From Mytilus galloprovincialis (lineage: Eukaryota > Mollusca > Bivalvia > Mytilida > Mytilidae): a DNA stretch of 64,000 nucleotides. The notes beneath the pieces are model-generated. The model saw only the letters and a list, made by a program, of their open reading frames with translations, was not told the origin of the DNA and ran no database searches. The stretch spans positions 50,530,805-50,594,804 of the forward strand of contig NC_134847.1 of NCBI RefSeq assembly GCF_965363235.1, given 5' to 3'. Every line of letters starts with the position of its first letter. The first letter of the stretch is position 1. Made by a program: the position numbers and the translations under genes. Below, one piece after another: positions 5,856-62,300 of this stretch.

Positions 5856-5886
<31 letters not shown>

Positions 5887-8800
5887 TGTTTGTATTGGAC
5901 AAAAAAAGCTTTCTTGCTTCTTCATTTTTATATATGTGATCTAAATTATAAACATTATTGTCGACTCTGAAAATATAATGTAATGGTAGATGACATTTAA
6001 CGTTAGACTGATCTGTCAAATCTCTAAAAAAAAATGACCTTGTATCTTACCTTCTATAAATTTCTAGGAATTTCATTGGTTAAAAGCAACTGCGTGGTGA
6101 CCGTGTATATTTAAAATAGGATTAGTAGGCGTGGTTTCGTATAATGTCAAAAGACCGCTGTGTAACTAATAATACACAACTGTGTATAGGGTGGTATGTA
6201 GCCTTGTCAATACTAGACTAACACATATATTACCCTGAATGATTAGAAATAAATGATCAGAAAATTACCGATACAATGAGCTCTATACTTCTCGTAGTCC
6301 CACCGCTAGCATGAGCTGAAGATCCTGCTCGTATCCTGTAGTCCTGTCTGGATACAGAGAAAAAAGAAAATATGTGTTTTATTATCCATCAGTAATAAGT
6401 GAGAGCAAAATGTGGTTTTATATGACTTGTGTTGTTTTACACGTTCAAACTATATGAAACACACTACAAAGGGACCTACAAGTAATGGTCTTAAAACAGA
6501 ATTTTTATTCATATTTTCCTCTTTTTTATGAATAAATTAACCTCAAAAAGTCTGTTGTGTGGATCGGTGGTTACCTCAAACCACTCCAGAATCGACCAAT
6601 CATGAAAGACTGACTGCCACAAAATAGCCAATAGTGTCAATGTGGCGTTAAACAGAAAAATAAATCAATTTGTGTACTAGTATATTAGATTTGTATTTTC
6701 GCATAACGCCAAAAAACATGGTATGAGTATTGATTTACTCGTAAAACAATGTTAAAAAAAAACAAAAAAAAAACATAGAAACAGAAAACCTATATACAAT
6801 CCGTTTGAAAACGGTTTTAAAATTGAGATGTGATTTTTTTTCTGAAAAAAATTGCTTGTGACCATCTACCAGATTTTTCGGACATCCGAAGTTCAGTTCT
6901 TCAGGTCTTTGGTTATGTGTTAGTATATCTTGATGTGTGCACTTAAGTTCATCACAATATATCTAAACACTTACGGTCTGGAACTGTCGACACAATGTGC
7001 AGCCGTTACAATCCAGTCAGCATTTACAATGGCACCTCCACAAATATGACTATTACTTCTTTGTAGGGACACTTGATGAGGGTGCTGTGAAATAGTTGTA
7101 TCTACACCACCGACGATTCTCCCTTCTGCGTCATCGACCTAGAAAATATGATAGCAAAATTTAGAATAATAATAACTATTTATACATTAGTTGTCGTACC
7201 CAGCAGAGGGTTGTCAACGTGTTAATACACATGCTATTCCTTTCTGTCCAGACATAATAAAGTGCGCCTTGATGTGGCAAACACTTTGACGTATTTTTGG
7301 GTTATTTTTCTCTATCTTTAACATGTTTTGCCTATTATTCTTTATTCTCGAATGGGCCCATTTTTCATTAGTATTTGCCCATTAACTCCGTCCAAACACC
7401 TCTGAATTAATTTAGGCTTTTTTCTTAATATATCAGCAAACTAAACGCCTAATGACTGATGAAAAGTTTTGCAGAAATATTGTTAAATTTTGAGTATTTA
7501 TCGTTAAATAAAGTGTTAGGACATCGCTCTCCCATGTAAAATTTGTAGTTTTGAATCAATATCAACAGCAAAATTTAATTTAAGAATTAAAACGGGGAAT
7601 GTGTTATAGAGACCAAAGTGTATAGAACATCCAAATGCAACCAATGGGCAATGAGTCTTAAACACAGCCTGAAAATCCAACACTCAGAGGCGGGCTTCAG
7701 CTAGCACCTAAATAAACAAGTATTCTAGTTCAGAGAAAATTGACGTCACACTTACCTCAAAAATATATAAATTAACCAAAATGAAAAAAAAACATACAAG
7801 ACTAACAAAGGTTGAATAGAATTTTGAGTGTATGGAGATGTTTAGAATTGTAAAAAAATGTTTCGGACTATTTATGACTTGAAATTTAATATACAGTATA
7901 GAATATGACATCTTTTTTCGACTTCGACTCTGTGAGTGAACCAATTACAGGACAAATTGCCTCTTCTTCTTTATAAAAATAAGGAGATGTCGTATGATTG
8001 ACAACGAGACAACTATCTACATAGTTATACCCAGTTATGTTCAAAGAATATAACTTACCGGCCATTTGTCTCCCCTTTCTACACTTTCTATCAGCTCTTT
8101 CGCTGGTTGCCATATGTCAACAGCAGAAGCTTTAATAATAAATAAAATGAAAGAAATGTTACAAGGTATGTACAATAAAACAAAAAGACACAAAGCGCAG
8201 TGATAATTTACACTTTGGCCTTGCTAAAGTTGTTTTTTATTCCAGGGTCACTGATGAGTCTTTTGTAGACGAAACGCGCGTCGGCGCAAATCCAAAATTC
8301 CAATTCTATTACTATTATCTATGATGAGCCTTTTTACAGTTAGTTTTTATTTTTTGTTAAATTAGTTATATTAATAATAATAACAATTTATTTCAAAAGC
8401 AGGAAGAGACAACAGGATAATTTAATACAATGTTAGACAAATTAATCATATATGCACCATATCACATACACATACACCAATAAGTGGCCTTGTTCTCATT
8501 TTTAGTCCACTTTATATAATTAATCTTAACCTTAAAGTTACAATTCACCAAAAATGAATTTACCCAACTCCACTCAGATACAATTATTTTTAAACTTCAA
8601 AAGGCAGAATGATGCATCCTTAATGTATTTCTAAAATTTATTAATGTATAAATACTATCAAAGTAAAAAAAAAAACAATTTTCAGATCAATGAATGCAAT
8701 TTCCTAATTTTAGACGGGGTTTTTTTTTACATTATTTTGTTTAGGGAATTGAATTTTGATATTTTCGGATAACAAAAAACAAACATAGATGAAACAAAAA

Positions 8801-9489: not shown

Positions 9490-9624
9490 ATGGAGTCATT
9501 TGCATATTTCGAACCTGTCTATAGTCGCAGATCAGTTCGAAGAAGATTAGCAAGAACTGAAGACACGTTGTGTGGAAGAAAATTTGCGCGTTTATGTATC
9601 GTACATCGGCGAGGACAGTTTTGA
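9490..9624 (+). CDS. Small open frame, 44 aa, doubtful
   Basis: This ATG-to-TGA frame is unusually rich in Arg (SRRSVRRRLART) and locally higher in GC than its surroundings. No splice partner, poly(A) signal or homologue was recognised. It could be a relic exon of a mobile element or chance. It is listed because codon use looks more protein-like than in the flanks. Confidence 0.2.
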   Translation: MESFAYFEPVYSRRSVRRRLARTEDTLCGRKFARLCIVHRRGQF

Positions 9625-9639
9625 AGAAAACAACTTTTA

Positions 9640-10465
9640 TGAGGTCAAAAGCATAATTGAAATGTTACCTATATCATGTTAGTGCACCTAAATAATTGCA
9701 ATTGCATGTCAGGTAGTACATGTCTACACATAAAATGACAATGAAATTTGACATTTTCATATTTCAAATAACCACAATTTCTACAGTGTAGGTTGCTGTG
9801 TGGTTTACATTTCTGACGACTTATATTCAGGTTACATCATATGCAGATATATATTAAATAGACATATAGCAAAACAGAGATGAAGCGAAATATAAGAGAA
9901 GCGTTGCCGCAACGAGAAATACATTTTGCACACATTTTGTATCAAACATCTGTACATATAGGAATTGATTGTTTGTTTGACAAATTATACGAACTGAAAT
10001 CAGGTGACGATCACAATGATTCGACCCTTTTTGCAAGATATGCCTGAAGGTCAATCACTTTCATTTCGTATAAAATTTCAATGAATAGAATTCCATTAAT
10101 ATATTATATAGGGAATTCATAGTGTTATATTAAAGTATATACTAGGGGGGAAAATCTGAGACAAGTGCCTGTGAGGGAACTGAATGAACATATTTTGAGT
10201 TTGACTTCCAAGAACATAGGACACATTTTTTTTTTTCATTATTAGTCGTTTTCTACCTTACATGTTGCATTTTATACTTTTTACCATGATTGTTGATTGA
10301 CAAACAGAATAGACCAAGGGGTGTTAAAAATAAAAAGTCGAAGAAAAATAAAAGCATCATAGCAAAAAAATGTAAAAAAACAACGAAAAGAAAACTAAAG
10401 ACTGAGCAACACTAACCCCGCCAAAAAAACAGGGAGGTAAATCACTTGCTACGTAAGAGCTAGTC
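9640..10465. other. Intergenic stretch, nothing recognised
   Basis: AT-rich sequence with no supported exon, RNA gene or clear terminal repeats. Confidence 0.5.
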
Positions 10466-36289: not shown

Positions 36290-37300
36290 CACATTTTCAC
36301 CAATGCCAATGATGATTCAGATACAAAATTTGTAAGGGTTCCGCGGAACCCAGTGTCTCGCCTATTTTTGCTGTAAATTGCAGACTCAACAACAATGAGG
36401 GAAAAAATCAATAAAAATATTCCTCTTGTTACATGTACTATTTTATGATTGCAAGAAAATCTAAGTCCATTTAAAAGTAAATTACAGAAAAAACTGAGTA
36501 ATCTTTTTACAAACTTTACTTCTGGATACAATATTATGATCATAAATAAGCTTCTGTCCAAGTTTGGTACAAACCCAGGATAGTTTAAGAAAGTTATTAA
36601 AATTTTTAAAACTTTAACCACAGAGTGAATGTAATGGTTCCCTGGAGAAAAACTAAGTCCATTTAAAAGTAAAATACATGAAATATGGAAAAAATGGATT
36701 TATTTATTTACAAAATTTACTTCTGGATACTATCTTATGATCATAAACAAGCTTCTGTCCAAATTTGGTACAAACCCAGGATAGTTTAAGAAAGTTCTAA
36801 AAACTTTAACCACAGAGTGAATGTAATGTTTCTCCGCAGAAAAAACTAAGTCCATTTATAAGTAAAATATGGAAAAAATGGAATTTTATTTTTTCAAAAT
36901 TTACTTCTGGATATTATCTTATGATCATAAACAAGCTTCTGTGCAAGTTTAGTACAAACCCAGGATAGTTTGAGAAAGTTATTAAAATTCTAAAAACTTT
37001 AACTACAGAGTGAATGTTTTGTTTCCTCGCAGAAAAAACTAAGTCCATTTATAGTAAAATACGAAAAAAATGGAATTTTATTTTTACAAAATTTACTTTT
37101 GGATACTACCTTATGATCATAAACAAGCTTCTGTCAAAGTTTGGTAGAAATCCAGTATAGTTTAAGAAAGTTATTAAAATTTCAAAAACTTTAACCACAG
37201 AGTGAATATTTGTTGACGCCGCCGACGACGCCGACGACGACGGAATGTAGGATCGCTTAGTCTCGCTTTTTCGACTAAAGTCGAAGGCTCGACAAAAATG
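36290..37300. repeat. Dispersed element with four ~190-bp tandem units
   Basis: Copies of AACTAAGTCCATTTAAAAGT start near 36462, 36649, 36844 and 37035. Each is followed by TTACTTCTGGATAC, TTATGATCATAAACAAGCTT, GTTTGGTACAAACCCAGGAT and ACTTTAACCACAGAGTGAAT. The left border has a perfect 14-bp palindrome GGTTCCGCGGAACC (36337-36350). The right border has a GAC/GCC-rich run and GGATCGCTTAGTCTCGC. I recall both border sequences as typical of a common mussel repeat. It is non-coding. Confidence 0.7.
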
Positions 37301-41600: not shown

Positions 41601-44600
41601 TACCAGGCAATGATGTGATGTGATGAAGAAACAAACAAAATAAAAAGATGAATAAGTGTTTAAAATGTGAATCAATCAAACTAAATATGAATTTTTCTAT
41701 GCAAGCAAACATTACAGTTTCAATTAATTATAAGGAAGATATAATCGTGATTTTTAATGTTGTGATGAAAATGGCAGATTTCAGAGAAACATAAAAATAT
41801 GTGTTCTCTAATTACCAATCCAACAACTTTTGAGCTGAGGTTAATTTTGAAAATCCTTACAATTTAAGACTTTTGTGGCTACAACCTTTTATTCTATACT
41901 GCAATCTGTTATCAAAGGAATTCTTTTCAATTCTTTTTCATTGTCAAGAACCAAACCAAGCATTTGAAAATTTACCATAGATAACAATAAAGATAACAAA
42001 AAACATGGAAAGTATGTGGTGAAGTATGAATGAAGCAATCAAAACACTTAAAAATTATTCAATAACGCAGGACAAAAGCATCCAAGGACTTCATATCACC
42101 ATATGCATGCAAAGCATACAAAATTTATTATGTGACATATTTCACCTATGTAGTTAGTGCAAACGCAAAGCTCAAGATTTTCTCTGAAATAAATAAAACA
42201 GTCTGTGTTATAGTTACTATTTGACCTATAGATCTCTTTTGATTATTTTCATTGTTGTCTTATTGATGTATACCTCACATCTATTATTCATACTTATTTC
42301 ACTGGATTTTGTATAAATATTATTTTAAATAATTCATGCAATTTTTAGATGTACATTTTCCTGAAAATCAAGGCAATTTATTCCTCAAAAAAATACAACT
42401 GGTATCATTGTGTTAAATTTCAGCATCATTATATCTGATAGGTGGAATTATGACTTAATAAAATTATAAAAATTCAGATGTGGTATCTTAAAACCAACAT
42501 GCAACTCCATTCATATTAACACCTCTTTTTTTTTAATATTTTTGTTTTTATAAGACATAATAACTTAGAAAACAAGGGTAAAACAAAAGTGGAACATTGA
42601 CAACTTCTGTGTAACCCTACTTGCATAAGATATTGAAGAGTTCACAGAAGGGAGATAACTATATAAATACTAACCTGTAAAGAAGTCATAACACCACTGG
42701 CTATAGATGATATTTTTCCTGCTACTTTAGTAACACCTTGTCGTACACCATCTTTAATCTCTTGTAAATCGGGTCCACTATTATAAGATCTATTTTTAGA
42801 GGAATTGTCACCAAAATAATCGTCACTAGATATACTATTACTTCCTTGAAATTTCTGTAAATTTTGTTTTGTTTCAAACTACAATAAAAAACAAAACATA
42901 ATTTAATATAATTCAAGCAAAAAGTCATGATTTATGTCTTTGGAAGTTGTTGATATAAACATGCTTAATCTTTTATTAGATGTCCATAAAAAAAAGAAAT
43001 ATCTCCTTTAATTTCTCATTGTACCTTCACTTCTAAAATGTGTGAGAGTTCATTTTTCACTATCATATAAGTTTTCTGCTATACTGACGGTGGATTCATC
43101 ATGTTCATTTTTATTCACTGGATACATATTTTTGTGGATTTCACGGATAAAATTTAACCAAGAATATAATTTTGATCAAAGTACTAAAATCCTAGAGGAT
43201 TGTGTGCAAAACAACAAAATCAAATATCCACAAAAATCAAATTTATCCTCAATCCATGAAAAATAAATGAATTGACAGTCTTAAAAATATCTCCATAGAA
43301 GCATAGGCAAATATTGGACATAAATTTCTTTCACATTTAAGTATTTAGATAATATCAAAAATATTCAATTCATTTAACTGGAGTTTTATCATTGATCTAC
43401 TTACATCTGAATCTCGACCTCCAAAGTACTGGTCTGATGAAATGGCTTTTGCGTTCCCAAATTTTTTCTGTGCATCTTCGGCAGATGAAGTTGTATTATA
43501 ATCATAAGCCTTTCTACTTCTACTTGGTCTGAAAATAAAATAAACTAACATGTTTAACCCAGACACATTCTGTATTTATGTACCTGTCTCAAGCCAGGGG
43601 CCTGTAATTCAGTGGTTGTTTGTTTATGTGTTATATATTTCGTTAATTTTTCATACATATATTAGACCGTAAGTTTTCTCGTTTGAATTGTTTTACATTG
43701 TCATTTCAGGGCCTTTTAAAGGTATGCAGTATGGGCCAAACTCATTGTTGAAGGACGTACAGTGACCTTTAGTTGTTAATTTCTGTGTTATTTTGGCCTT
43801 TGACGAGAGTTGTCCATTTGCAATCATACCACATCTTTTTTTTTATATTTACATGTACTTGACTTGTTATATATGTATATCAGATTCTGGACAACAAATT
43901 AAAAACTGACAATAGAATAAAGAAGAAGATGCAGAATTGAGTAAACTTTAACTTCATTTATTATGTTAATATTATTTTTCTAATACTCTTTTCTATTAAA
44001 TTCACATTTTTTTTTAATTTACCATTGCTTGATTGGATTGTTATATACACACATGTATTTTGAATATTGAAAAGGTTTGTTTGTTTTTTATTTATTTTAT
44101 AGATGCTTGTGGAATCTATGCATTAAATGTTTGAGAATAAGGATATATATGTGTATTATCTTTAAGCCAGGGGAGAAAAGAAATGTTCACAAATGTGTTT
44201 AAATCAGGGGGAGATAATTATGATGCATATTGCTACATATCAACACAGTTTCATAGTTTTTGTGAGACAGTACAGCAAGGTCAGGAAAATTATATAACTA
44301 AATTTTCATTTTTACATCCTTGAAAACGTAGTTTTTAGAAATACCTCCAAATTATAAATTTCTGTCCATAAATTTTTTCTCACTTGCTAAATAATGATTG
44401 TCCTTTCATATAATTTGCATGAATTTTATATTTTGAATATTTTTTTTCACCAAAGCATGGTCAAATTATATGCAACAATTATAAACTCTTTACAGTTCAC
44501 AATGCCTAACTAAATTACACCAGTAACAATTCTGCAAAATATTTTATATATAAGTCTACTGTGGTTTTTGTGTCTCCTAGTGAGAATCCACAATACATTT

Positions 44601-47600
44601 GACACCTAAAATAACTTACCGGTCATCTTCATTCTTTGATGGAAAATTTTCAGTAAAGCTTTGTTTAGATTCAAATCTATCTATATCCCAGCTACCAGAT
44701 TTATTGCTGCTGCCCCAACTGCTTTCTTTATTTCCCCAGGTATTGTCTCTGTCTATATCAAATGCACTTTCATTTCTACAATTATAAATTCAAGATTACA
44801 TACTGTAGATTCATATCATTTTGTGACTTACCAATTTTTCTCGGATTTTGATGGCCAATGTAAGTTACAATTTAAAACAATCCACATGGCATAAGTTTCC
44901 TACATGCTTGAATTCAGACTTTAGCAAAAGCATGAAATCAAGTAGCAACAAAAATACTTTTTACAAGATCAATAAAACATTTTAACTATGGAAATAAATG
45001 ATTCTCAAGTGACTAAAATGTAGCTGTTAATCTGACACTTCTGTGGTTTTTTTTTAAAATTTGCAACAGAACAAGTGAAAACCAATATTTACAGCAAAAT
45101 GCTTAGTGTGTAGGTATTAAAAGTCAGTATTTTTTATTACCTTGGTATACAACCATCTGTTATACTACCGTCTGTTAAGAGTAGACTACTCTGACAGATA
45201 ACCAATCTATCTGTCTGTTGGCAAAGACTACTCAAAAAGTAGGGAAGTATACCTCAGCTTATAATGATTTCAAAGTTCAGCTAGCAAGCAAGCTAACCAA
45301 AGACATTACCTTTACCTACACATTCAATACATTTAGCTGCAAGAGTATGTCATGTATCCATACAGATTTAGATCTACTTCCATTTACAGCTCGTCCATAA
45401 AGGTTTCAGTGTAAGGCCTTATATATCATAGTCAGCACTTTACAAAATTGTAAGCAAACTTGACAAAGCAGCTATCATAACCTTTTTTAAGGAAAGCACT
45501 GCTACTTACTTATTTCCTGAAAATCCCATATCATCTAGTTCATCCTCAAAGAAATTTCTGGATCGTGCAGGTTTACTGCTGTATTTGTCTAAACGTGATT
45601 TGCTGTCTTTATCTGGAGAGTCTTGGTTAATTGTCTGCATATCTGTCATAGCTGAGTGACTAACTCCTCTGAAAAAGAATTTAATATATATATACACATA
45701 CTGGGATATAAATGAAGGATAAAGATTTGCTATTATTAATCATTTTTTGAATTTTAAAATTTCAAGCAAGTTAAGTTGGGACAAAAACCTTTAAATAAAA
45801 ACCTAAGCAATATCAGTGGTCTGTCATTTGATCATATAAAGATATTCAAGCATGACCATTCTATCTTATTAAGAATAAATTGCCTCGCTGAGCACAGTCT
45901 GATACGACTGCAGAGGTCAAACCCTGATATTTGGGGCAAATTTGGACACAATATTTAAGCTTGATACTGTCTGAATTTGGATTGTGATCCAATTTTTAAC
46001 ATATTATAGGTTTCTGACACCAAAAATGGTCAAAGATGAGACAAATCTATTGCGTAATACTGTGCAATGGAAGGTTTCTTCTTTCTTCTTGAAACTTTGT
46101 GAAAAATTGAATAATTTTGAAATTTTTTTTTTAACCCCTCAAAAAATTTGGAAAAAATTTCCCCCAAAACTTTTTGAATCCCTTGGAGCAATTACCCCAT
46201 ACTCATTCCAAGCCTTTGAAGTATTGAACCTTGTAGTACAATTTCAAAGAGATTTATTCACTTAAACACAATTATTGTCTAGAAACTAGAACCAGATGCT
46301 CTGCAGGGCGCAGCTTTATACGACCGCAGAGGTTGAACCCAGAACGGTTGGGGCAAGTATGGACACAACATTCAAGCTGGATTCAGCTCTAAATTTGGAT
46401 TGTGATTAAATAGTTGACACAGCATAGGTTTCTGACACAGAATGAATGTGGTCTAATGAACTTAAAATACTTTTTTTTCCTTTGAGCAATTCACTATGCT
46501 GTTGAATATTAATCCTCTCAAAAAAATGTTTGAAGAAGTTTTCTTTTTTATTTATGAAATCTGAAATGAGAAAAATTTAACCCCCCCTCCATTTTTTTTT
46601 CCACATCCCCCTTTCCCTTTTTCCAAAACTGATCTCAATTCAAATTTCTAATGGAGTTTGCAACAATAACTACTCATTTAAATACATCATAAAATATTAA
46701 AATGTAACAAAAGGTGCTTGTTATCACTGAATGGTAAAGATTGTTTTATTTTATCAGTTGGTAGTAAAAGTGAATATACATTGTATATTGTATAAAACAA
46801 TGATTTAAGTTGATTCAACTACTATTCTGGACAAAGAAAGATAACTCCAATCAATTGAAAATTTCTTGCTATTGCACAATATTGTGCCATTAGATATTTC
46901 TTGCTATTGCGCAATACTGTGCAATTGAAAATATTTGCTATTGCACAATACTGTGCAATTGAAGATTTCTTGCTATTGCGCAATACTGTGCAATTGAAAA
47001 TTTCTTGCTATTGCACAATACTTAATATAATAATTTTGGAACCTGATTTGAACCAACTTGAAAACTGGGCCCATAATCAAAAATCTAAGTACATGTTTAG
47101 ATTCAGCATATCAAAAAAGCTCAAGAATTCAATTTTTGTTAAAATCAAACTTAGTTTAATTTTGGACCCTTTGGACTTTAATGTAGACCAATTTGAAAAC
47201 GGGACTAAAAATAAAGAATCTACATACACAGTAAGATTTGGCATATCAAAGAACCCCAATTATTCAATTTTTTATGAAATCAAACAAAGTTTAATTTGGA
47301 CCCGATTTGGACCAACTTGAAAACTGGGCCAATAATCAAAAATCTAAGTACATTTTTAGATTCAGCATATCAAAGAACCCCAAGGATTCAATTTTTGTCA
47401 AAATCAAACTAAGTTTAATTTTGGACCCTTTGGACCTTAATGTAGACCAATTTGAAAACGGGACCAAAAATTAAGAATCTACATACACAGTTAGATTCGG
47501 CATATCAAAGAACCCCAATTATTCAATTTTTGATGAAATCAAACTAAGTTCAATTTTGGACCCTTTGGGCCCCTTATTCCTAAACTGTTGGGACCAAAAC

Positions 47601-50600
47601 TCCCAAAATCAAACCCAACCTTCCTTTAGTGGTCATAAACCTTGTGTTTAAATTTCATAGGTTTCTATTTACTTAAAGTTATGGTGCGAAAACCAAGAAT
47701 AATGCTTACTTGGGCCCCTTTTTGGCCCCTAATTCCTAAACTGTTCAGACCTCAACTCCCAAAATCAATACCAACCTTCCTTTTGTGGTCATAAACCTTG
47801 TGTCAAAATTTCATAGATTTCTATTTACTTAAAATTATGGTGCGAAAACCAAGAATAATGCTTACTTGGGCCCCTTTTTGGCCCCTAATTCCTAAACTGT
47901 TCAGACCTCAACTCCCAAAATCAATACCAACCTTCCTTTTGTGGTCATAAACCTTGTGTCAAAATTTCATAGATTTCTATTTACTTAAACTTAAGTTATT
48001 GTGCGAAAACCAAGAAAATGCTTATTTGGGCCCTTTTTGGCCCCTAATTCCTAAAATGTTGGGATCAAAACTCCCAAAATCAATCCCAACCTTCCTTTTG
48101 TGGTCATAAACCTTGTGTTAAAATTTCATAGATTTCTATTCACTTTTACTAAAGTTAGAGTGCGAAAACTCAAAGTATTCGGACGACGACGAGGCCAACG
48201 TGATAGCAATATACGACGAAAAATTAAAATTTTTGCGGTCGTATAAAAATGCTTCTTTTTGGCCCCTTATTCCTGCCTGTTTGGGGCAATTACCCTCAAA
48301 CTCATTTTTAGACTTCCCTTTGTAATATGGAACCTTGTGGTACAATGTCAGAGATATCCATTCACTCACACACAAGTTATTGTCCGTAACTACAAAAATG
48401 CTTGTTTTTGGCCCCTTTTTGGCCCTTAATACCTAAACTGTTGGCACCATAACCCCTGAAATGAATCCCAAACTTTAACCTGTGGTATTAAACATTGCTG
48501 TACAATTTCAGAGCGATCAAAATACCAATACACAAGTTATTATCCTTCCACTTGAAAAATGCTAAACGGTAGGGACCATCATCCCCAAAATTAATCCCAA
48601 TCTATCTTTTGAGGTATTGAACCTTCTAAAAAAAATCATAGAGATCCATTTACTTAAACTAAAGTTACTGTCAGGAAACCAAATGTGTCTTCGGACGACG
48701 ACGCAGATGACATCATACAATTACACCATCCCAAATTTTTTTTTGCGGTCCTATAAAAATGTATACCAAGATGTTCATATAGTACATACTTATGGCCACT
48801 AAATCCCATTCCAAGCCTCTCAAACTGTGCTGCTTTCTTTGGATCATTGGTCATTAATTTATCTTCTTGTTTCTTTCTCTCTATACTCATATCTTTATAT
48901 GCTAACTTCATAGTCGCCCTGTAAATTACAGTACATCTGTCAATATTTATTCTCCAATTGTCAAGTTAATAATCTTTCTCTTGCCTTGATTTATATTCAA
49001 ATAAACACATTGCAGAACCATGCATGCACAATTAACATTTTTGTAAGGTCAGGATTTATCCAAGGGACATAACTCTTTAAAAATAATTGATTGGCACTGA
49101 TTTTCGAATTCATCAAAGACATTGCTATTATAAACTTTTGATACAAATTAAATAAAAATTTGACAAGAATTAAACACATGAAAGAACTAACCAAACAATT
49201 TTCCATATAATTAATGTACCCAAAGGGCATAACTCTGTGAAAGATAAAAACAAAATTCTGTCAAGTGATTCAGGTGGTTGCAGATAGGAGGGTAAGAAGG
49301 ACACAAAAACAAATAAACCAACTCCTGATCAAGCAAGGGTATACAAGGGGGGTTATAATCATTTGTTTAAATTACATTTGTTTATCTTTCTGCTCTTGTG
49401 TTTTTGCCTCTTCTACGGCCATATTTTTAGCTAGCTCTTCTCTGTCTTTATCAAGTTGCTGGGCTTTATTCTCAATTTCGCTGAAATTTGCTTTTACTCT
49501 TTGAGCACCAAATCCTTTCTGAAATCAAAAGTAACATGTATTTAACAAAAATCCTTATTTTTTCTGAAAAATGTAATTGAATACAAGTGTAAACTTCAAA
49601 AAGCAACAACAGATTCAAGAGGACATCGACAAGAACGAATATCAAAGAAAACTCTTTGTTGTTTTATTTTGTGTGGATCTACCAGTATATCGTTCAGACA
49701 TGACTGTATCTCAAACTTTTAATATGTATTCTTCACAAAGAAAATACTCCCTACAACCTATTTAATTCCATTTGCCTATTGCAATTTTTTTTTTAAGAAT
49801 TTTACTTTTGTTAATCAATGCAGCAAATGAGGATAAAAAAAAACTTTGTTTAATGAGTTACATATGTGATGTTATTGTTTCAATATTTCTATGTTGTGCT
49901 TTATTAAATATTTTTTCATAAATCTATGGACTAATACTAACCGATTTTTTTGCCCCTCCTGTTTTCTTGGCACCTATCAATGCCTTTCTTGGTTCAGCAA
50001 CAGCCATAGCTTGAGTAGGAGACATACTCAAAGCATGATCAACAGAAGGACCTTCTGATGGATCTGATGAAAAATAAATTTACTTATATATCAATTATCT
50101 ACATGAACTTTGACAGTACAAATACATGCATGGTGTACCAGGTTATACATTTTGATTTTCCAAATTTTTGGTCTATAATTTTCGGAAAAATGTCAAATTG
50201 TCAATCCAGAAAATGTATTTTAAAATTTGTAATTTGATTTTATGATGCATATGTATTTCAATAACATATTGTATACTATTTTATGACATTTTTTAAAGCT
50301 CTGATAATTCTTATTCAATCCGCTGCTGTGATCCAAATAGACAGTCCTTGTGAGAGTTTAAAACATGTCAAATAAATTAGTTCAAGAAGACAAAAAAATT
50401 ATCCTAAACAAGAATGTCAATTCTGAATCATACTTTCCACACATTTTTAATTTTTTTAATCAAATTTACTACTATAAATAAACGTTGTTTTTTTTTTATT
50501 ATACTAACATCTGTAGAGTGTAGGTTAACTATCAAATGAGCAAATAGTTATGTGTAATTTTTTTTTTTTACCTTAAGACTATAAAATCATTCCATTAAAC

Positions 50601-53600
50601 ATGTTAAATAAAATCAACAAAAATCAATGCATTCAAAGCGTTTTTGCTAAAATGAGAGAGGAAACATTTTAGTCTTAATATATATATCCTTGTAAAAAGA
50701 TTCAATCTATTATAGTGGACCATACCTATTTCCTCTGCTTTACTTAGACTTCCATTTTTAATAGGCTTTGGTTCTGAAGTATGTGTGAGTTTCTGATTTT
50801 CTTGTATCAAATCAGGTTCTTTATCCTCTGTATGGGCATCAAAGAAATCTACTTCCTTATTCACTGGAGATGTGGGATCATGATGACTTTCAATGTGTAC
50901 CTAAAAAGAAACATATAAAATATATCAATGTCAGGGTAAACAAGAATGTGTCCATAGTACACAGATGCCCCACTTGCACTATCATTTTCTATTGTCAGTG
51001 GACAAAGAGTCAAAACTCTTTTTGGCATTAAAACTAGAAAGAGCATATCATAGGGAACATGTTTACTAAGTTTCAAGCTGATTGGACTCGACCTTCACCA
51101 AAAACTTTAACTGAAGCAGGATAGACGAACGAAAGCACAGACCGAGAAACATAATGCATAAAATTGATCTTCCTGGCTCTTTTTTTCTATATATATATAT
51201 ATTCATATCTTTTTATGCTAATCTCACAGATGCCCTGTTTTATATGCTAATTATGTCATAATTTTTAATCTTATAACATGTATGAGGTTTATAATAGTGG
51301 AAGCTAAGAATATTAAACACTTGTTTTTATATTAAAGATTTTGCTGACACCTACCTTTGTACCATGTAATTTCATGGCCTGTGTTGCTATATTAAAGATT
51401 TTGATGACACCTACCTTTGTACCATGTAATTTCATGGCCTGTGTTGATGACACCTACCTTTGTACCATGTAATTTCATGGCCTGTGTTGATGACACCTAC
51501 CTTTGTACCATGTATTTCATGGCCTGTGTTGATGACACCTACCTTTGTACCATGTAATTTCATGGCCTGTGTTGCTAGTGAATGTAACTTTCCTTTATAC
51601 AACTCAGCTGCTCGGCTGTGGTATTTCTGTTGCGAGTCTGAAGATGTACAACCATGTTGACGGAAAAAATGTGTCTGCAATGAAAGTACTTTGATGTAAA
51701 ACATTCATTTTGTACATATGATATAAGAATTATCAAATATATGTGTCTGCTACAAGCAAATCTTTTTAAGTATCACTTAAAAGAACTTGATAAAATTCTG
51801 ATAATATTCCCAGATTTTTTACCTTCATATCATATCCTCCTTTATTATATAAATACATACATTGAGCATGCATTAAAAATACTTTTCTTTGTGTAAATTA
51901 TGTCCAGCTGACCTCTGATCTAAAGTTAGGATAGATTCAAAGCTTTAATCATGTCAAATTATGTATCTGCCAGTTCAAAGTATGTGTGGGTCATTGTCTC
52001 ACATTATTAATGCTGGATTCTTCTATAGTAGAGGCTTTAGCATTGTTTACATCCTCTTCCTGTGTCCCGTGATATAGTTAGTCTCATTGGCAATTATACA
52101 TGGTCAAGGAATTCATTTAGGTTCTGGATTAAACTGCTTTTAATAATTTAGTTTGGATTTATATGCATTCCATATGTAGATGTACACAACTGTACTATTG
52201 ATTCAGTGCATAAAACAGTTTAACATCTAATGCATGCTAATGAAGTAGGTTAATTGGCTATTAATAAAACAAAAAATCACACAACATCTTCTTTTTAATA
52301 ACATGAATAATGATGTCTTCTAAAAAAAAATTGAAAATGGTTACACATAAAGTTTGTACAAATGTCGCATTCCCAACATGTACATCATGTACATGATCTA
52401 CATTAGAAAGATTAAATGTCAGCATGGGGTTTTCTTCTAGGGATTTAAGATACTTACTAATCCACTGTTTCAGAATCTAATGCATCCTGGGTAATATTTT
52501 CAAAAGTGTACACCAAAACGTCCTGATTGGTTAAAAATGTCATTAACAATGGAAATTTAACCAAAGACGTGACGTTCTTTTCATTTTGGGGAACAAACAA
52601 TGAAATTACCCATGATGCTTTCGATTCTGAAACGGCCAATTCTGTGTGGTCGAATACTTACAGCATTTGCATTTCCTCCCACTTGCATGGCTCTTAACTG
52701 TATCCATGTCCAACTAGTATCCAGTTGTGTAGATCTGATAAAGGTAATGTGGACCCCTAGAGATCTGTGAACAGCTGAACAATCAATGCACAAGAAAACA
52801 CCATAGGTTACACTTGCCCATGTTGGATTATTGCTTTGACAATCAAAACATTGCTGAAAAGTGAATGGAAATATACATTTTTTGGAACATTTAAGTCAAA
52901 GTACTTAAAACAAACAAGGCTCTGTTTTGAAGGTCATGCATACTTCAATGTACTTTGATCTAATGTAGTTTATTTTTTACTAATTGTGATAAGGATGGAG
53001 AGTTGTCTCATTGGCACTCATATCACGTCTTCCTATATCTATGTACAAATGATGTAGGATTAGTTACTTTGACAATCAGACATTCCAATTTTTTTTCTTA
53101 AATTGAATTAACAGTAGATCTAGAGGTTTCCATATATAAATTAACATTATGTAATCAATTTCGAAATTGTTTCAAGCATTTTTTTTTTCAGAAGAGATAA
53201 ACATAATCTATTATAATGTTAAACAAAACCTCTTGTATTTGGACCTGTCATATGCCTGTACATGTATAACAATACTAGCTTTAATACAACTGTGCAGACA
53301 AAGCAGAGAGCACTATCATATATTGAGTGTGAATACAAGCAGTTGTGAAGCTCTTAATACTCAGTAAGGGTACTACAGTGTCTTCAAGACTGAAGGTCAT
53401 CTACTTGATCACTTATTCACTAAGAATGAGTGAATATTGTGGTGATAATTATATCAATTCTTAGTTAGTTCAATAGCATGTCAAAACACTTGGTGTTGTT
53501 CTTATTATTTTTCAAAAAAGTTATCCAAAATATTTATTGTCTGGTATTAATTGTCAAATTTCATTGCAGTATTTTTTTTCTTTTTGATGGTGCCTTGATT

Positions 53601-56000
53601 AATATTTATCTGGAATGATCTGGTTCTATAACATGACCCAACCCCTTGAAAATTTTATACAGAAATATATGCTTCTGGCTTGATAACCTTGTCTGTAGTG
53701 ATGGTAGTACTTGAAGTTTTTATTTGGCGAGCATATGAGACATAATTATCTTTTCTGGTTTTGTCTCCCTGCCAGATACGAGGGGGGGGGGGGGGGGGGG
53801 CTAGAGGGGGTCTCATCCCGATTTCCCGGTTTTAATATCAGAAAATCCTGAAATCCCTGACATATTTTGTTAAAAATCCTGATCCCGATAAACAAGAAAT
53901 CACCATTTATTTATTAAAGAGGTCCTCCACTATTTTAGGTAACGAATAGACACATCTGACACATCTTTTAAAGGAGGCCGTCCTGGTAAACTTTGAAAAT
54001 TAAACCCTCTGAGTAATGTTGTTCTTAATTATTTGCTTTCCTGAATTTGTGCATTTTGAACAATATATTCAGTACGTACATTTTAAACACGTCAAGTTGG
54101 GGTATTTGTTTTCTTCAAAATTGTAGAATGTCATAAATATTTTTATATGATATTCGATTATAGAGAAGACTGCGTCTGTGAAATTATCTGTGTAGTAAGG
54201 CCAAGAAAAAATACAGGTGTTTTAGGCAACATCCCCTAAAAAATTAGGATAGGTAGGAAAGCAAATTTATTTTTTTTCAAACGTTTTTGACTGGTTCATA
54301 TGGAAGAAAAATTCTGACTTTATAAGTGCTTGTCCAAATAACATCCAAAAAACTTTAGTTGTAGAGTTAGATTATAGGTACTTAAAATTGGGGTAGATAT
54401 ATTTAAGGGTACCGGAAACACATGTGTTTTCTTTTAGGTCTTACATAATCTTACTCTTATTGAAAATATCCAAATCAAGTCTAACTTTTGAGAAGGGTTG
54501 TAAAGAGGCGTTATGTTCACGGACAACCGCGAAATAAAATTCAAATTTCACGATGAACGAAAAATAAAAAAAAATTGCTTGCACGTTACCAATTTCGCAG
54601 TGAAGCACGAACTGTTTTCACGGAAGGTTGAAATTAAAAATGGCAAAACACGTTGCACGAAAAAAAAACCTTAACCACCCTCTTTGGGTATTCTGATCCT
54701 CTAAATCAGAGCGACACTAATACCAAGGAGATTAGACATTTATCATGAATTTTGGTTAGCATTTCATTCACGTACAGTGGATATTAAATATGGCACTGGC
54801 TACGGTTACTTTAAAAAAAACGAGCAGAAAATAACAATAAGATCTGGATCTTCTCTGTTTCTAGATGCGATTCTGATTGAAGTATTATGAAAATGGCATT
54901 TTTATCTGTCCAAGGTACAGTTTTTGTCAATCCCGTTATATTTCAACGACGAAGTCCCCAATAACAGTAGAAAATTCAATAAAAAAAAAAAAAATCGGGA
55001 AATATTTTCCCGATATTTTCATTGTACTAATGAACTCAAAATCATTCAATTTTTTTTTGTCGGGTTTTTGAATTTCCGGATCTGCGCAGAAATCTACAAT
55101 GTACTTCCTTTTTCCGGTCTCGTTTGTAGGAAACTTTGAGTAAAATTTATATTTATCAGTCTTGCATAAAATAGGAAAGAACGCAATACCAATTTCATTT
55201 TTAATAATTCCTCGATATGAAAAAACGTTACCTGATGATAGCGTTTCTTTGTTTACATTGTATATGACGTCATTACTTAAATAACGTCTTAACTAAAATC
55301 CCGAACAACAGAACCAAAATCCGGGAAATGTTACGGTATTTCCATTTCTTTTTTTTTTTTAACAAATATTAAAGTTACAAAAAATTAATTCATACAGACT
55401 TCGTCCCCATTTACAGGTAATGCCTGCCTCATATTATTTCAACATAAAAATAATGATTTCCCATGGTTAAAAACGTGGGTTTCCCATATCCCGATGTTTT
55501 TCTATCCCGAATTCCCGATCTTTAAAAAAGACAATCCCAATTTCCCATTGCTAAAATCGGTCAATCCCAGCGTCCCGAAAAATGGTCTCGCCCCCCCCTC
55601 AGATACCAATGAATAACAAATGAATATTTACATAAATATAATCACAATCTCTTCAGAAACAACACAATTATCATTACAGAATTCAGATATAAAATGCAGA
55701 ACCAAGACCTTTGAAAGGCAAAACAGAGAATGTCTGAACACTATCTACTCGATTGAAATTCGTATGCCTAATGTGTTTCACGCCGGTAGTGACAGGTGGC
55801 ATTATTAGCCCATTCACATCGTCTCATATGTTAGTAGAAAGCGGTTATATTTAAGTATTGTTAAAGATATTTGGCTTTTTAATAGTCATTGAACAAAAGT
55901 AAAATTTTAAGTGTCTCAAATGCCTTACTTTGTTTGTAGGAATTGAACGAAGACGTTTGAAAATTGCCTGAATATCTGTCTTAGACGGTTGATCTGCCAT
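38677..56000 (-). CDS. ARFGAP2/3: ADP-ribosylation factor GTPase-activating protein 2/3, 12 exons, 541 aa
   Basis: Coding exons (minus strand): 56000-55929, 52853-52662, 51674-51543, 50900-50726, 50063-49942, 49518-49376, 48918-48790, 45668-45510, 44775-44620, 43528-43405, 42878-42675, 38694-38677. All borders are GT-AG and all phases join. The protein stimulates GTP hydrolysis by Arf1 on Golgi membranes and works with the COPI coat. Residues 1-125 are the ArfGAP domain: zinc finger C26-x2-C29-x16-C46-x2-C49, arginine finger R54 ([10 protein letters not shown]), and [14 protein letters not shown]. The middle has [14 protein letters not shown] and a coiled segment [10 protein letters not shown]. 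The C-terminal Glo3-type repeats are [16 protein letters not shown] (449-464) and [10 protein letters not shown] (483-492), ending SLQDKYGN. This closely follows human ARFGAP2 and ARFGAP3 (521 and 516 aa); which paralogue it matches better was not tested. Exon 3 has a five-fold duplicated donor site. It is head to head with AMN1. Confidence 0.95.
39321..39595. mobile_element. piggyBac-like MITE with TTAA ends
   Basis: The element starts TTAAGGTGGTACCTAACAC and ends GTGTTAGGTAGCACCTTAA: inverted ends of about 15 bp inside TTAA on both sides, the target duplication typical of piggyBac. It is 275 bp with no coding capacity, in ARFGAP intron 11. I recall the family as frequent in mussels. Confidence 0.75.
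40473..41039. mobile_element. ~565-bp element with AAGGAGTAGG inverted ends
   Basis: The left end AAGGAGTAGGGGCAATCAGG is mirrored by the right end AGGCCTTAATGCTCCTACTCCTT; TTGGCCCAAA versus TTGGGCGAAA extends the pairing. A short plus-strand frame inside is not recognised. It is non-autonomous, in ARFGAP intron 11. No clear target duplication. Confidence 0.65.
43600..43855 (+). repeat. Dispersed repeat ending CAATCATACCACATC (most complete copy)
   Basis: Blocks in order: GGGGCCTGTAATTCAGTGGT, GTTTGTTTATGTGTTATATA, AAGTTTTCTCGTTTGAATTG, GTATGCAGTATGGGCC, CATTGTTGAAGGACGTACAG, TAGTTGTTAATTTCTGTGTT, GTTGTCCATTTGCAATCATA. I recall this as one of the most abundant short repeats in mussel transcript ends. 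It is about 250 bp without a Pol III box I can see, so SINE or MITE is undecided. Fragments lie at 15560, 57075 and, inverted, 60415. It is in ARFGAP intron 9. Confidence 0.75.
45270..45345 (+). repeat. 75-bp repeat shared with 21209-21283
   Basis: This is the second copy of the TCAGCTAGCAAGCAAGCTAA repeat described at 21209, here in ARFGAP intron 8. Confidence 0.6.
45885..48757 (+). mobile_element. GATACGACTGCA-type element (outer), split by a second copy
   Basis: The outer copy starts TCGCTGAGCACAGTCTGATA then CGACTGCAGAGG, and ends TTTTGCGGTCCTATAAAAAT. Its left half runs to about 46290 and resumes at about 48248, with the inner element between. Parts of the central text (GCAATTACCC...ACTC, GAACCTTGT(A/G)GTACAAT) occur on both sides of the insertion. 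It fills about 92% of ARFGAP intron 7 and ends roughly 30 nt from the exon 7 donor. It is non-coding. Confidence 0.65.
46315..48247 (+). mobile_element. TTTATACGACCGCA-ended element (inner), 1.9 kb, internally repetitive
   Basis: It has perfect 14-bp inverted ends, TTTATACGACCGCA and TGCGGTCGTATAAA. Inside lies a minisatellite of about five ~35-bp units (46863-47020: TTTCTTGCTATTGC(A/G)CAATAC). Next come two ~258-bp direct repeats (from 47036 and 47294, GAACCAACTTGAAAACTGGG-type). Last are about four ~155-bp repeats (47565-48130, with CCCCTTATTCCTAAACTGTT and CCAACCTTCCTTTTGTGGTC). No transposase frame is seen, so it depends on another element. Confidence 0.7.
50938..51150 (-). repeat. Dispersed repeat with CCGT-rich head family (copy 3)
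   Basis: ACAAGAATGTGTCCATAGTA, GATGCCCCACTTGCACTATC, GTTTACTAAGTTTCAAGCTG and CAAAAACTTTAACTGAAGC are the reverse complement of the copies at 27.2 and 34.0 kb. It lies in ARFGAP intron 3, just upstream of exon 4. Confidence 0.75.
51331..51575 (-). repeat. Five-copy tandem duplication of the exon 3 / intron 3 junction of ARFGAP
   Basis: Each copy holds, on the minus strand, the exon tail AACACAGGCCATGAAATTAC, ATGGTACAAAG and then the donor GTAGGTGTCATC. Donor borders (last exon base) fall at 51543, 51501, 51458, 51415 and 51355. The copies are 42, 43, 43 and 60 bp apart. The first is the real exon end, continuous with CATTCACTAGC upstream. Use of the second donor would add 14 in-frame residues ([14 protein letters not shown]); the others would shift the frame. 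Confidence 0.9.
52467..52633. mobile_element. 167-bp MITE in ARFGAP intron 2, next to exon 2
   Basis: The inverted ends are GTTTCAGAATCTAATGCATC and the mirror of GATGCTTTCGATTCTGAAAC, with CTGGGTAAT versus ATTACCCAT continuing the pairing. It ends 28 bp from the exon 2 donor (52661). A diverged relative is at about 61310-61440. Confidence 0.7.
52965..53045 (+). repeat. Short repeat ending GTTGTCTCATTGGCACTCAT (copy 3 of 3)
   Basis: AAGGATGGAGAGTTGTCTCA and TTGGCACTCATATCACGTCT, then TCCTATATCTATG, match the copies at 34.5 and 35.9 kb. It lies in ARFGAP intron 1. Confidence 0.7.
53780..55600. mobile_element. 1.8-kb element in ARFGAP intron 1 with G-rich ends
   Basis: Flanked by AGATAC on both sides (53774-53779 and 55601-55606), a likely 6-bp target duplication. 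The left end is GA followed by a run of 19 G; the right end is TCTCGCCCCCCCCTC, giving short G/C-rich inverted ends. Near both ends lie runs of CCCGAT or TCCCGG motifs (ATCCCGATTTCCCGG; TATCCCGA, CAATCCCAGCGTCCCG). No transposase frame is seen. Its part 54916-55450 is repeated in inverted orientation at 56850-57405. Confidence 0.55.
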
Positions 56001-59300: not shown

Positions 59301-62300
59301 CATGAAATTATTTGTCTATATGTTTATTTTGCTTTGCTTAAAGTATACAAACCTTTTTTGAATGTTAAAAAGTTAAGATTTTAAATATTTAAACTGAATC
59401 AATTTTTTTTCTCAATAAGTTTGAATTAGCAAGTTTTTAAGGCAAAACGTGCTTGCAAGTTTTATTTTGGCATTCTACAGCTAAATGATCACAGATCTGA
59501 CCATCCTTCATGATTCTAATTAAACTTGAGCAAATGCTCAAGACTTTATCTAAATTGTGAAATAAGCAACTCTAATCCCATCACCAAAAAAATCAAATGT
59601 TACTGCAGTTGACTAAGGCCTAATAGCTGTAGTATGTATCCCATCCAAAAAAGTTGTCACATAATTCCTGAATTAAAATTTGAATACAATAACTTTTCTT
59701 TTGAAGGAATAAAGAAGTTACTGTCTGCATGTCCACATTTACAGACAGTTTATCTCAGAAGATGTTTAAACCTCACAGATGATGCTATTATATCTCTCTC
59801 ACAACATTGCAGTCAACTACGCTATTTAAACATTGGAGGATGTCGTCTCATCACAGATAAAGCAATGGAAGCACTAGGACAGAATTCAAAATTCTTGAGA
59901 AGTATCAATTTTTCTAAAACAAAGGTACAATCACACAAAACCTATTAATTCAAGTATGAATTTGAAAATCAAAATTTCATGTTTAGTTACAAATTTAGAC
60001 AGTAAGTAGAAGCTAATATGTAAAGTGATGTAAAAGGGAGATAATTTAACACGATTTCCTACTTTTAGATAAAAATTAGTGTTGTCAAATCGTACACTTT
60101 TGCCTAACCGGTTACTCGGATAATCGTTCGACCGATTAACCGGTTAACCGGTAGTTTGAGTTGGTGCTTGCAAGCCTTATCAATAGTACCCTACACATGG
60201 GTTCGACCGATTAACCGGTTAACCGGTAGTTTGAGTTGGTGCTTGCAAGCCTTATCAATAGTACCCTACACATGGATATAAGATGTGTGAAAAATGAAAT
60301 AAAAAAAACTACTTGATGTGGTGGAATTGAATATGTTTGAAAATAATTATTCTTTCCTTTTCACTTGTTGTCTCCGAAAATGATGTGAAGTGTTTCATTT
60401 TGAGTGATTAATTATAAAAAAGAAGATGTGGTATGATTGCCAATGAGACAATTCTCCACAAGAGATCAAAATTACACAGAAATCAACAACTATTGATAGG
60501 TCACCGTACGGCCTGTTTCTTTACTTTGTTTGCACGTTACTCTTACTATCACGTATGCAATGAGCACATTCACATTGCTTTGCATTTCACAATTTTTGAG
60601 TTAACATTTCGTTTAAAGTAAGACTAAAGCCTTGCAAGACGGAGGTTGCACATTTAGATGTAGGTTTACATAATATTAGATCAGAAACGAAATAATGAAG
60701 TAAATCGTAAAATTAAATCGCATTACTGATTTAGAGTTACTGCTAAAAAAACAAGTATACTAATTATGTTTCTTTAAGATCCTGCCCCGAGCTGAGAGAC
60801 AAATTCTAATTAATTTTATGATGATGGGATTAACAATAGCAATCAATTTACAGTCAAATTAATTACCACGACGACATTTTTTAAGTAAAACCTAACCTTT
60901 TAATAATTTCAATACAAATTTATATAAAATCTATCAAAATTGAAAAAAAGTCCGGTTAACCGGTCAGCGTTTTTGGTATTCGGTATTCGGTCGTTCGACC
61001 GATTAACCGGTTAACCGGTTAACCGGTTAACCGTTGACAACACTAATAAAAATAGGTGATGGGTTTATTACAATGAGACAACACAACAACGTCAAAAAAT
61101 AACATCTAGAGCTCACCATATTGTCTTAAAAATTTGAATAATACATGCAATCGTTTGAAACATGCAGTATGCAAATGATTATATTTATACAAATAAACCA
61201 TTTGAAAATATGTTTTTATTTGACTTGTGAAAGAATAAACAATGATAAAATTAGAAAGAATTACAATGTTTTCTACGTTTTATAATTTTATGTTTGTATC
61301 AATTTTTAAAAGTGTACAACAAATGTTTTGATTGGTTAAAATAAACGGGCTAAACCATGGAAATTCAACTTATGACCCAAAGTTGTTCTCATTTTGAGGT
61401 ATGAACAATGTAATCTTTATTTATCCCACAGTACTATATTAAACAGTGAATTGTAATTGAGTTCTTGTGTTCGAAAAGTGTTCAATTAGATCATATACTA
61501 CCTATATTGATATTCCTTCAATAACATTTTGTTTTTGTCATTTAAAGTGAATATTTTAATTTAATATATTGATAGGTTACAACAGAAGGAGTAGTTAGTT
61601 TAGTGATGGGAAACTGTGGTAAAAGTCTCAAGGTTGGTATGATTGATATGGTTGATTTAATGTCCAGCAGCAAATATTACATGAATATCATATTAATATT
61701 CAGGATGATTAGTCATATATGAATATTTTTACTAAGGTTAAAATCAACAGGAAACCTTGACTTTGAGATAATACAATACTCAGTGCAATAATATTTTCTC
61801 ACATGAAAAAAGTGTGATTTATACAAGGGAGATAATTTGTAGGGACTACAAGATTCAATATTCATGAAATAAAGACAGAATAAAACTCTCATTCTAACTG
61901 TTTAAGTGTACAGAGATATGAAGCTTATAAGCCTTATATTATACCCACATGCATTAAAAGACAATAATATTAAGAATGAAACAAAAGAGTTTACTAAATT
62001 ACAGAATATTTTTAAATACATTACAGTTTTAAGTCTTTTCCATATAGACTAAACTGAACATATGGTTGTTTATCTTTTACAGGAAATCCATATGGATGGT
62101 TGTCATGAATTAACAGACGAAGCCGTTGAAGCAGCTTTACAATTCTGTCCAAATCTTACTATTCTGTTGTTCCATGGTTGCCCAAAAATTACAGGTCAGT
62201 AACTGACAAACTAGTCTTTTTTTAGCTTCAGTTCTGTAATAAATCAAATATATTTAAAGTTTCTTGTTAGTCTGTTAATTAGACATTGAAAATTTCATAG

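Follow-up and report, generated by a model that had tools for sequence, protein, structure and literature searches.

Results

The five-donor array of the ARFGAP2/3 gene

The window analysed here is a stretch of 64,000 nucleotides on contig C10 (NC_134847.1, positions 50,530,805-50,594,804) of the 1.385-Gb assembly of Mytilus galloprovincialis, which comprises 331 contigs, of which fourteen, C1 to C14, show up as large. Positions below are those of the window unless a contig is named. An ARFGAP2/3 orthologue lies on its minus strand, and a further terminal exon of this gene is likely to lie below 42675. The predicted protein carries the ArfGap domain (PF01412, E = 5e-32, residues 13-116, Pfam). 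The best PDB chains are ARFGAP2 (5nzs, E = 2.1e-64) and ARFGAP3 (2crw, 6.4e-61), as against 1.2e-25 for ARFGAP1 (3dwd), so that the ArfGap zinc finger is closest to ARFGAP2/3. An earlier note on this DNA had named the gene ARFGAP2/3 and placed a repeat array at its exon 3, and both statements are borne out by the Pfam match, the PDB-chain matches and our reading of the exons. The features are as follows.

42675..56000, minus strand: ARFGAP2/3 orthologue, 11 recognised coding exons, start codon at 56000
51543..51674, minus strand: exon 3 (THFFRQHGC...MKLHGTK), end of the ArfGAP domain region
50727..50900, minus strand: exon 4, with an acceptor (TTTTTAG/) common to all five donors
51344..51574, minus strand: junction-spanning tandem array of five donor-bearing units, from TRF, repeat search and splice-site reading
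51532..51574, minus strand: copy 1, 43 bp, continuous with the remainder of exon 3; donor 51543/51542
51490..51531, minus strand: copy 2, 42 bp after loss of one base; donor 51501/51500 (+42 nt)
51447..51489, minus strand: copy 3, 43 bp; donor 51458/51457 (+85 nt)
51387..51446, minus strand: copy 4, 60 bp (the 43-bp unit and 17 bp of extra intron); donor 51415/51414 (+128 nt)
51344..51386, minus strand: copy 5, with ordinary intron after it; donor 51355/51354 (+188 nt)

TRF reports the array as 43 bp x 4.1 at 51401-51574 (98% matches, score 341) and as 60 bp x 2.0 at 51328-51446, and the repeat search finds five copies spaced by 60, 43, 43 and 42 bp in plus-strand order. Each donor reads AAAG/GTAGGT on the minus strand (last exon base at 51543, 51501, 51458, 51415 and 51355), and all five are identical over 9 nt (AAG/GTAGGT). 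Predicted U1 pairing is -12.2 kcal/mol at every one of them and ranges from -1.4 to -10.1 kcal/mol at ten other donors of the gene, for which the exon ends are approximate. These results agree with the earlier note in its claims of five tandem junction copies with equivalent donors, of their spacings, and of the loss of a single A from the 42-bp unit. Its statement that the unit straddles exon 3 and intron 3 also stands, with the split measured at ~32 exonic and ~11 intronic nt in place of the ~31 and ~12 given there.

The base missing from unit 2 is an A on the plus strand (T on the coding strand), and copy 5 has one base change past the donor (TCAG for TCAT). As the copies differ by nothing beyond this one-base deletion and this one base change, the array is either young or kept uniform. 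Five copies at 98% identity are far beyond chance. The array sequence matches one place in the whole 1.385-Gb assembly, in a search that passes over very common words, and with this single location a dispersed, transposon-borne minisatellite was rejected.

The end of exon 3 reads CTAGCAACACAGG and the start of intron 3 reads GTGTCATCAAAATCTTTAATATA. The junctions of the 43-bp units read GTGTCATCAACACAGG, with a shared CAA, and that of the 60-bp unit reads AATATAGCAACACAGG, with a shared TA. Given these shared bases, the array would be explained by two duplications through microhomology of 2-3 bp and by subsequent growth. The proposed course is a tandem duplication through such microhomology, which would have been followed by expansion through slippage or unequal exchange.

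The junction of exon 3 and exon 4 is in phase 0, and exon 4 starts at 50900. By frame computation, donor 1 gives the normal protein. We infer that this donor (51543) is the functional one, since copy 1 is continuous with the ArfGAP coding exon. Donor 2 would add 14 residues in frame between HGTK and VHIE, without a stop in the 42 nt. The insert sits some 15 residues beyond the Pfam ArfGap match and leaves that match unaffected (E = 6.1e-32 vs 5e-32). Use of donors 3, 4 and 5 leads to a stop after 75, 80 and 80 residues, respectively, counting from the start of exon 3; the stop for donor 3 falls just inside exon 4, and those for donors 4 and 5 inside the third unit. Translation therefore confirms the earlier proposal that the first extra donor alone keeps the frame, adding 14 residues near the ArfGAP domain, and that the others shift it. 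A hairpin acting as a splice control was also considered: CCATGAAATTACATGG has a local folding probability of 0.84-0.95 in copies 2, 4 and 5 and of ~0.1 in copies 1 and 3. We set it aside, as these values come from a single model with no comparison.

Other repeats were seen in and around the gene. Large tandem arrays with periods of 135, 156 and 192 bp lie at 47052-48145 and 36456-37207 of the window, and those at 47-48 kb look like mobile-element minisatellites because they resemble sequence on C5. At positions 1500-1706 of that C5 locus (C5:3498713-3501853) is a 154-bp fragment of ARFGAP exon 4 together with 15 bp of intron (92% identity); another partial copy, of 49 bp, comes after it. The repeat enclosing these pieces is also present at 47.0-48.2 kb of the window, in an intron of the ARFGAP gene, and the C5 locus has the appearance of a gene fragment that was picked up by a mobile element. 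At 60126-60275 of the window are two perfectly identical 75-bp tandem copies with a ACCGGTTA-type motif that recurs at 60998-61033.

Junction arrays elsewhere in the genome

A comparison of the ARFGAP protein with the genome showed an ArfGAP exon on C13 that is repeated every 95 bp, in a gene that we take to be ACAP-like. Three arrays in this gene span donors: 71 bp x 2 at the end of a PH-like exon, 109 bp x 4 sites, and 95 bp x 21 sites with identical donors. The last of these extends over 2 kb at 98% identity; its unit is taken as 95 bp, the smallest spacing there being 94.

C13:71485001-71495000 (L010), positions 4884-6881, 7759-8134 and 9542-9695: arrays of the ACAP-like gene

The 109-bp units also hold a pyrimidine-rich stretch ending in AG, followed by different exon-like sequence, and may be partial exon copies. 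Upstream in the ACAP-like region (C13:71495001-71505000, positions 5742-7769), a 52-bp unit is repeated 39 times at 97% identity.

Two further arrays were found by scanning the coordinates of kinesin matches by eye, one at a donor on C1 (118 bp x 3) and the other at an acceptor on C3 (133 bp x 6). Exon repeats within 300 bp occur at two loci among the 125 matches listed for the kinesin domain (PF00225), and those among the 33 matches listed for PF01412 are the C13 array. By eye, no exons repeated within 300 bp were seen among the matches listed for PF00069 (139), PF00063 (93) and PF00620 (38), nor were any present among the 148 listed for PF00271, many of which are apparently mobile elements. 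Such coordinate scans overlook short units, since the arrays L064, L070 and L097 described below are invisible in them.

Near-identical kinase-domain stretches, spaced at ~1.7-1.9 kb and mostly in open frames, form clusters at C1:45763305-45812657 and C3:92336287-92352768. At C1:5487002-5487332, one gene has two diverged ArfGAP exons 187 bp apart (5487002/5487189), which are possibly alternative exons; as TRF finds no array there, the pair was left out of the count of junction arrays.

The rate was estimated from a sample of 80 further exons, each with 300 bp on either side: 40 from kinesins, 20 from RhoGAP and 20 from myosin matches. For kinesin, match rows 2-43 were taken minus 22 and 36, which are the arrays already known, and row 1, a long open frame, was excluded. 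RhoGAP rows 5-24 were taken and rows 1-4 (long frames) excluded. The myosin exons are 20 of the first 45 rows, in no strict order, with long open frames and several others skipped. Some of the sampled rows may be intronless, which would lower the rate. Arrays with a period of 30 or more were counted, using TRF together with reading of the splice sites. Junction-spanning arrays were present at 8 of the 80 exons, five at donors and three at acceptors.

L038: donor array, 41 bp x 8
L041: donor array, 90 bp x at least 4
L070: donor array, 64 bp x at least 5
L082: donor array, 50 bp x 6
L097: donor array, 47 bp x 3, copies 77% alike
L033: acceptor array, 82 bp x 2
L064: acceptor array, 68 bp x at least 4
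L077: acceptor array, 94 bp x 3

The arrays of L041, L064 and L070 run past the fetched stretch, and the lengths of their extensions are unreliable. By family, the counts are 5/40 for kinesin, 2/20 for RhoGAP and 1/20 for myosin, and with the two kinesin arrays found previously the total is 10/82. A single array (L089) was confined to the 48 kb of flanks, and none with a period of at least 30 lay inside the exon alone in any of the 80 exons. Arrays with periods below 30 (L055, L074, L079, L094 and L103, the last two within the match) were not counted.

The ARFGAP array belongs to a class that recurs in this genome, with 14 junction arrays found. Among the sequences compared, the units of the 13 other arrays match just paralogous exons or overlapping loci.

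Junctions compared with random DNA

Random DNA from the same assembly (180 kb in total, sampled at 18 places across five contigs) proved rich in arrays too: 29 with a period of 30-140 were present, covering 5.2% of the bases. Multiplication of a junction requires that the founding segment included it, and therefore the comparison has to be made between founders, not copies. In a sample of 80 exons, three families and one assembly, set against random DNA from five contigs, we observed 8 junction founders at 160 junctions where 1.73 are expected from the random density (Poisson p = 4e-4). Stricter thresholds gave 6 vs 0.95 expected (p = 5e-4), and for flank-only arrays 1 was observed vs 6.9 expected. 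When nine founders were placed randomly outside exon interiors, a mean of 2.1 and a maximum of 7 fell at junctions in 20,000 draws, compared with the 8 observed. Plain base coverage, a comparison that mixes founders with all copies, shows no junction excess (8/160 original junctions, or 5.0%, vs 5.2% of random bases in arrays); with the 35 junction copies as the count, the figure is ~35/187. The excess thus appears when founding events or junction copies are counted and not by base coverage.

Avoidance of exons by mobile elements may by itself account for the paucity of arrays in the flanks. Together the counts suggest that splice junctions in this genome carry such repeats more often than expected. 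GC content is 37% in the sampled exon matches vs 30% in their flanks. One candidate cause of the apparent founder preference for exon ends is a process biased towards sequence of lower AT content, with selection acting as a filter; another is a process tied to transcription or splicing.

The units share a common shape. Their intronic share is below half in 13 of the 14 arrays (sign test p = 0.002, post hoc), a count in which L097 was judged by eye (~33 + 14 of 47 nt), L064 is borderline at 0.49 and L077 was measured on two of its three copies. The exception is the 109-bp array of the ACAP-like gene, whose unit is, by difference, mostly intronic (0.77). A unit length that is a multiple of three occurs in only one of the 14 arrays (binomial test for a deficit, p = 0.027, post hoc). 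In the seven donor arrays with at least 90% identity, GT is present in 45/45 inner donors, which means that inner donors are not visibly selected away; the old array L097 has kept GT in one of its two.

Discussion

We consider it probable that the ARFGAP array is a young junction minisatellite that is spliced mainly at donor 1 through exon definition and is tolerated as a member of a recurrent class. Copy 1 alone is joined to a complete exon, and under exon definition donor 1 would for this reason predominate, with copies 2-5 leaving together with intron 3. If splicing leaked to donor 2, the 14 residues would be added, and use of donors 3-5 would yield early-stop transcripts that are probably destroyed. 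A purely exonic duplication would alter the protein, and one that includes the splice site would spare a complete outer exon end. The extra copies would then go to the intron side, the outer copy being the first at donors and the last at acceptors, and junction arrays could drift as long as splicing holds to the outer site. Because arrays occur at both donors and acceptors, exon definition, and not a first-transcribed rule, would be the simplest rule common to all of them.

Two other readings would have the inner donors of ARFGAP2/3 in regular use. In one they serve to produce isoforms, with a +14-residue ARFGAP2/3 variant and length variation between animals. This fits a second donor that is identical to the first, in frame and followed by 42 stop-free nucleotides, and an insert that leaves the Pfam match intact. 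Yet a generator of isoforms would hardly use units of which one in 14 is divisible by three, donors 3-5 bring early stops, and the in-frame step of 42 nt is a single-base accident in one unit, so that we regard this reading as unlikely. Programmed in-frame isoforms were rejected on the same scarcity of units divisible by three. In the other reading, intron-proximal donors often win and copy number tunes ARFGAP2/3 output through NMD. Reed and Maniatis are reported to have found in 1986 that the intron-proximal of tandem splice sites wins when the local exon context is equal, a result which would favour donor 5 and speaks against exon definition. The five donors are indeed equal in sequence and in predicted U1 pairing, donors 3-5 all lead to early stops, and inner donors in arrays of at least 90% identity keep their GT without decay. 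Under a strong proximity effect, however, genes that carry 21 donors or six acceptors would often be inactivated, and at the arrays on acceptors the outer copy is the last transcribed. We judge such tuning to be about as improbable as the production of isoforms.

It is less probable still that a shorter true repeat, or a single copy, gained copies through misassembly. The near identity of the copies is what such an error would leave. Against it are the private changes (the deletion in unit 2, the base change in copy 5, and the 77% likeness among copies of L097), the unique flanks, and the preference for splice junctions, which is not expected of errors. Nascent introns formed by duplication of an AGGT segment (the Rogers 1989 model) would make each unit a spliceable GT...AG mini-intron. 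Each unit does read GTAGGT...ACAAAG/GT, and such introns are reported for a 24-bp unit in fission yeast (PMC4974935). Here, though, the duplicated AGGT is the existing intron 3 junction (acceptor 50900) and not exon interior, and since the junction already existed the intron-gain model does not fit. Moreover, a 43-nt segment lacking a pyrimidine tract ahead of AAAG would be expected to make a poor intron. We rejected mini-introns on this ground and see scarcely any chance that they account for the array.

Splice-site repeats are known from other organisms. The name of the 31-bp VNTR of human CBS, c.1444_1467+7(16_21), denotes a unit of 24 exonic and 7 intronic nt (PMC2630376). As in that VNTR, the ARFGAP unit holds an exon end, a splice site and an intron start, so that the donor is repeated and the intronic share is short. 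The CBS repeat is polymorphic in people, with 16-21 repeats, whereas the mussel array is known from one assembly; on the other hand, CBS is a single human locus and 14 arrays were found in the mussel genome. A second CBS variant, 844ins68, is a 68-bp tandem duplication of an intron/exon junction in which one site is strongly favoured and the protein is spared (PMC2630376). With two copies on the acceptor side it is comparable to L033, L030, L064 and L077, and not to the donor array of ARFGAP. Introns from AGGT duplication, as described in PMC4974935, include ATP2A1, the 24-bp AGGT units of fission yeast and potato RdRp. They resemble the ARFGAP array in that AGGT is duplicated in tandem and splicing decides what the mRNA contains. 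They differ in that a new intron is formed, from exon interior or, in potato, from an intron-exon structure, whereas in ARFGAP an existing junction is multiplied and the intron grows. The VNTRs of ABCA7, MIR137 and TERT are likewise minisatellites near splicing decisions, but they are described as intronic or far from splice sites, with no mention of splice-site copies in these descriptions. An article on GC-rich genes of birds deals with repeat-rich introns and not with junction units. No report of junction arrays in mussels was found among open-access papers. The 31-bp VNTR of CBS is thus the closest known case, and the frequency of such arrays across one genome is the new part.

Taken together, these observations allow a wider and more tentative proposal, which we hold to be possible although we would not yet favour it: that mutation linked to exons or transcription repeatedly builds junction arrays (~5% of junctions, 8/160), and that many genes carry 2-21 identical sites which are correctly spliced solely because whole exons are read. 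Should the higher frequency of arrays at junctions than in nearby intron be confirmed, it would call for a mutational explanation. The arrays would also yield variable introns, annotation errors in the form of repeated exon fragments, and possibly differences in expression between animals. Studies of splice choice among equal sites have for the most part used engineered duplicates. The mussel, if the counts hold, offers many natural ones, at donors and acceptors, with 2-21 copies and in conserved genes whose product is known. For M. edulis, PMC11304980 describes Iso-Seq data covering several tissues. RNA-seq over these arrays would separate the rules of exon definition, proximity and first-transcribed site, and the arrays, if true, would amount to a natural genome-wide experiment on how the spliceosome chooses between identical sites.
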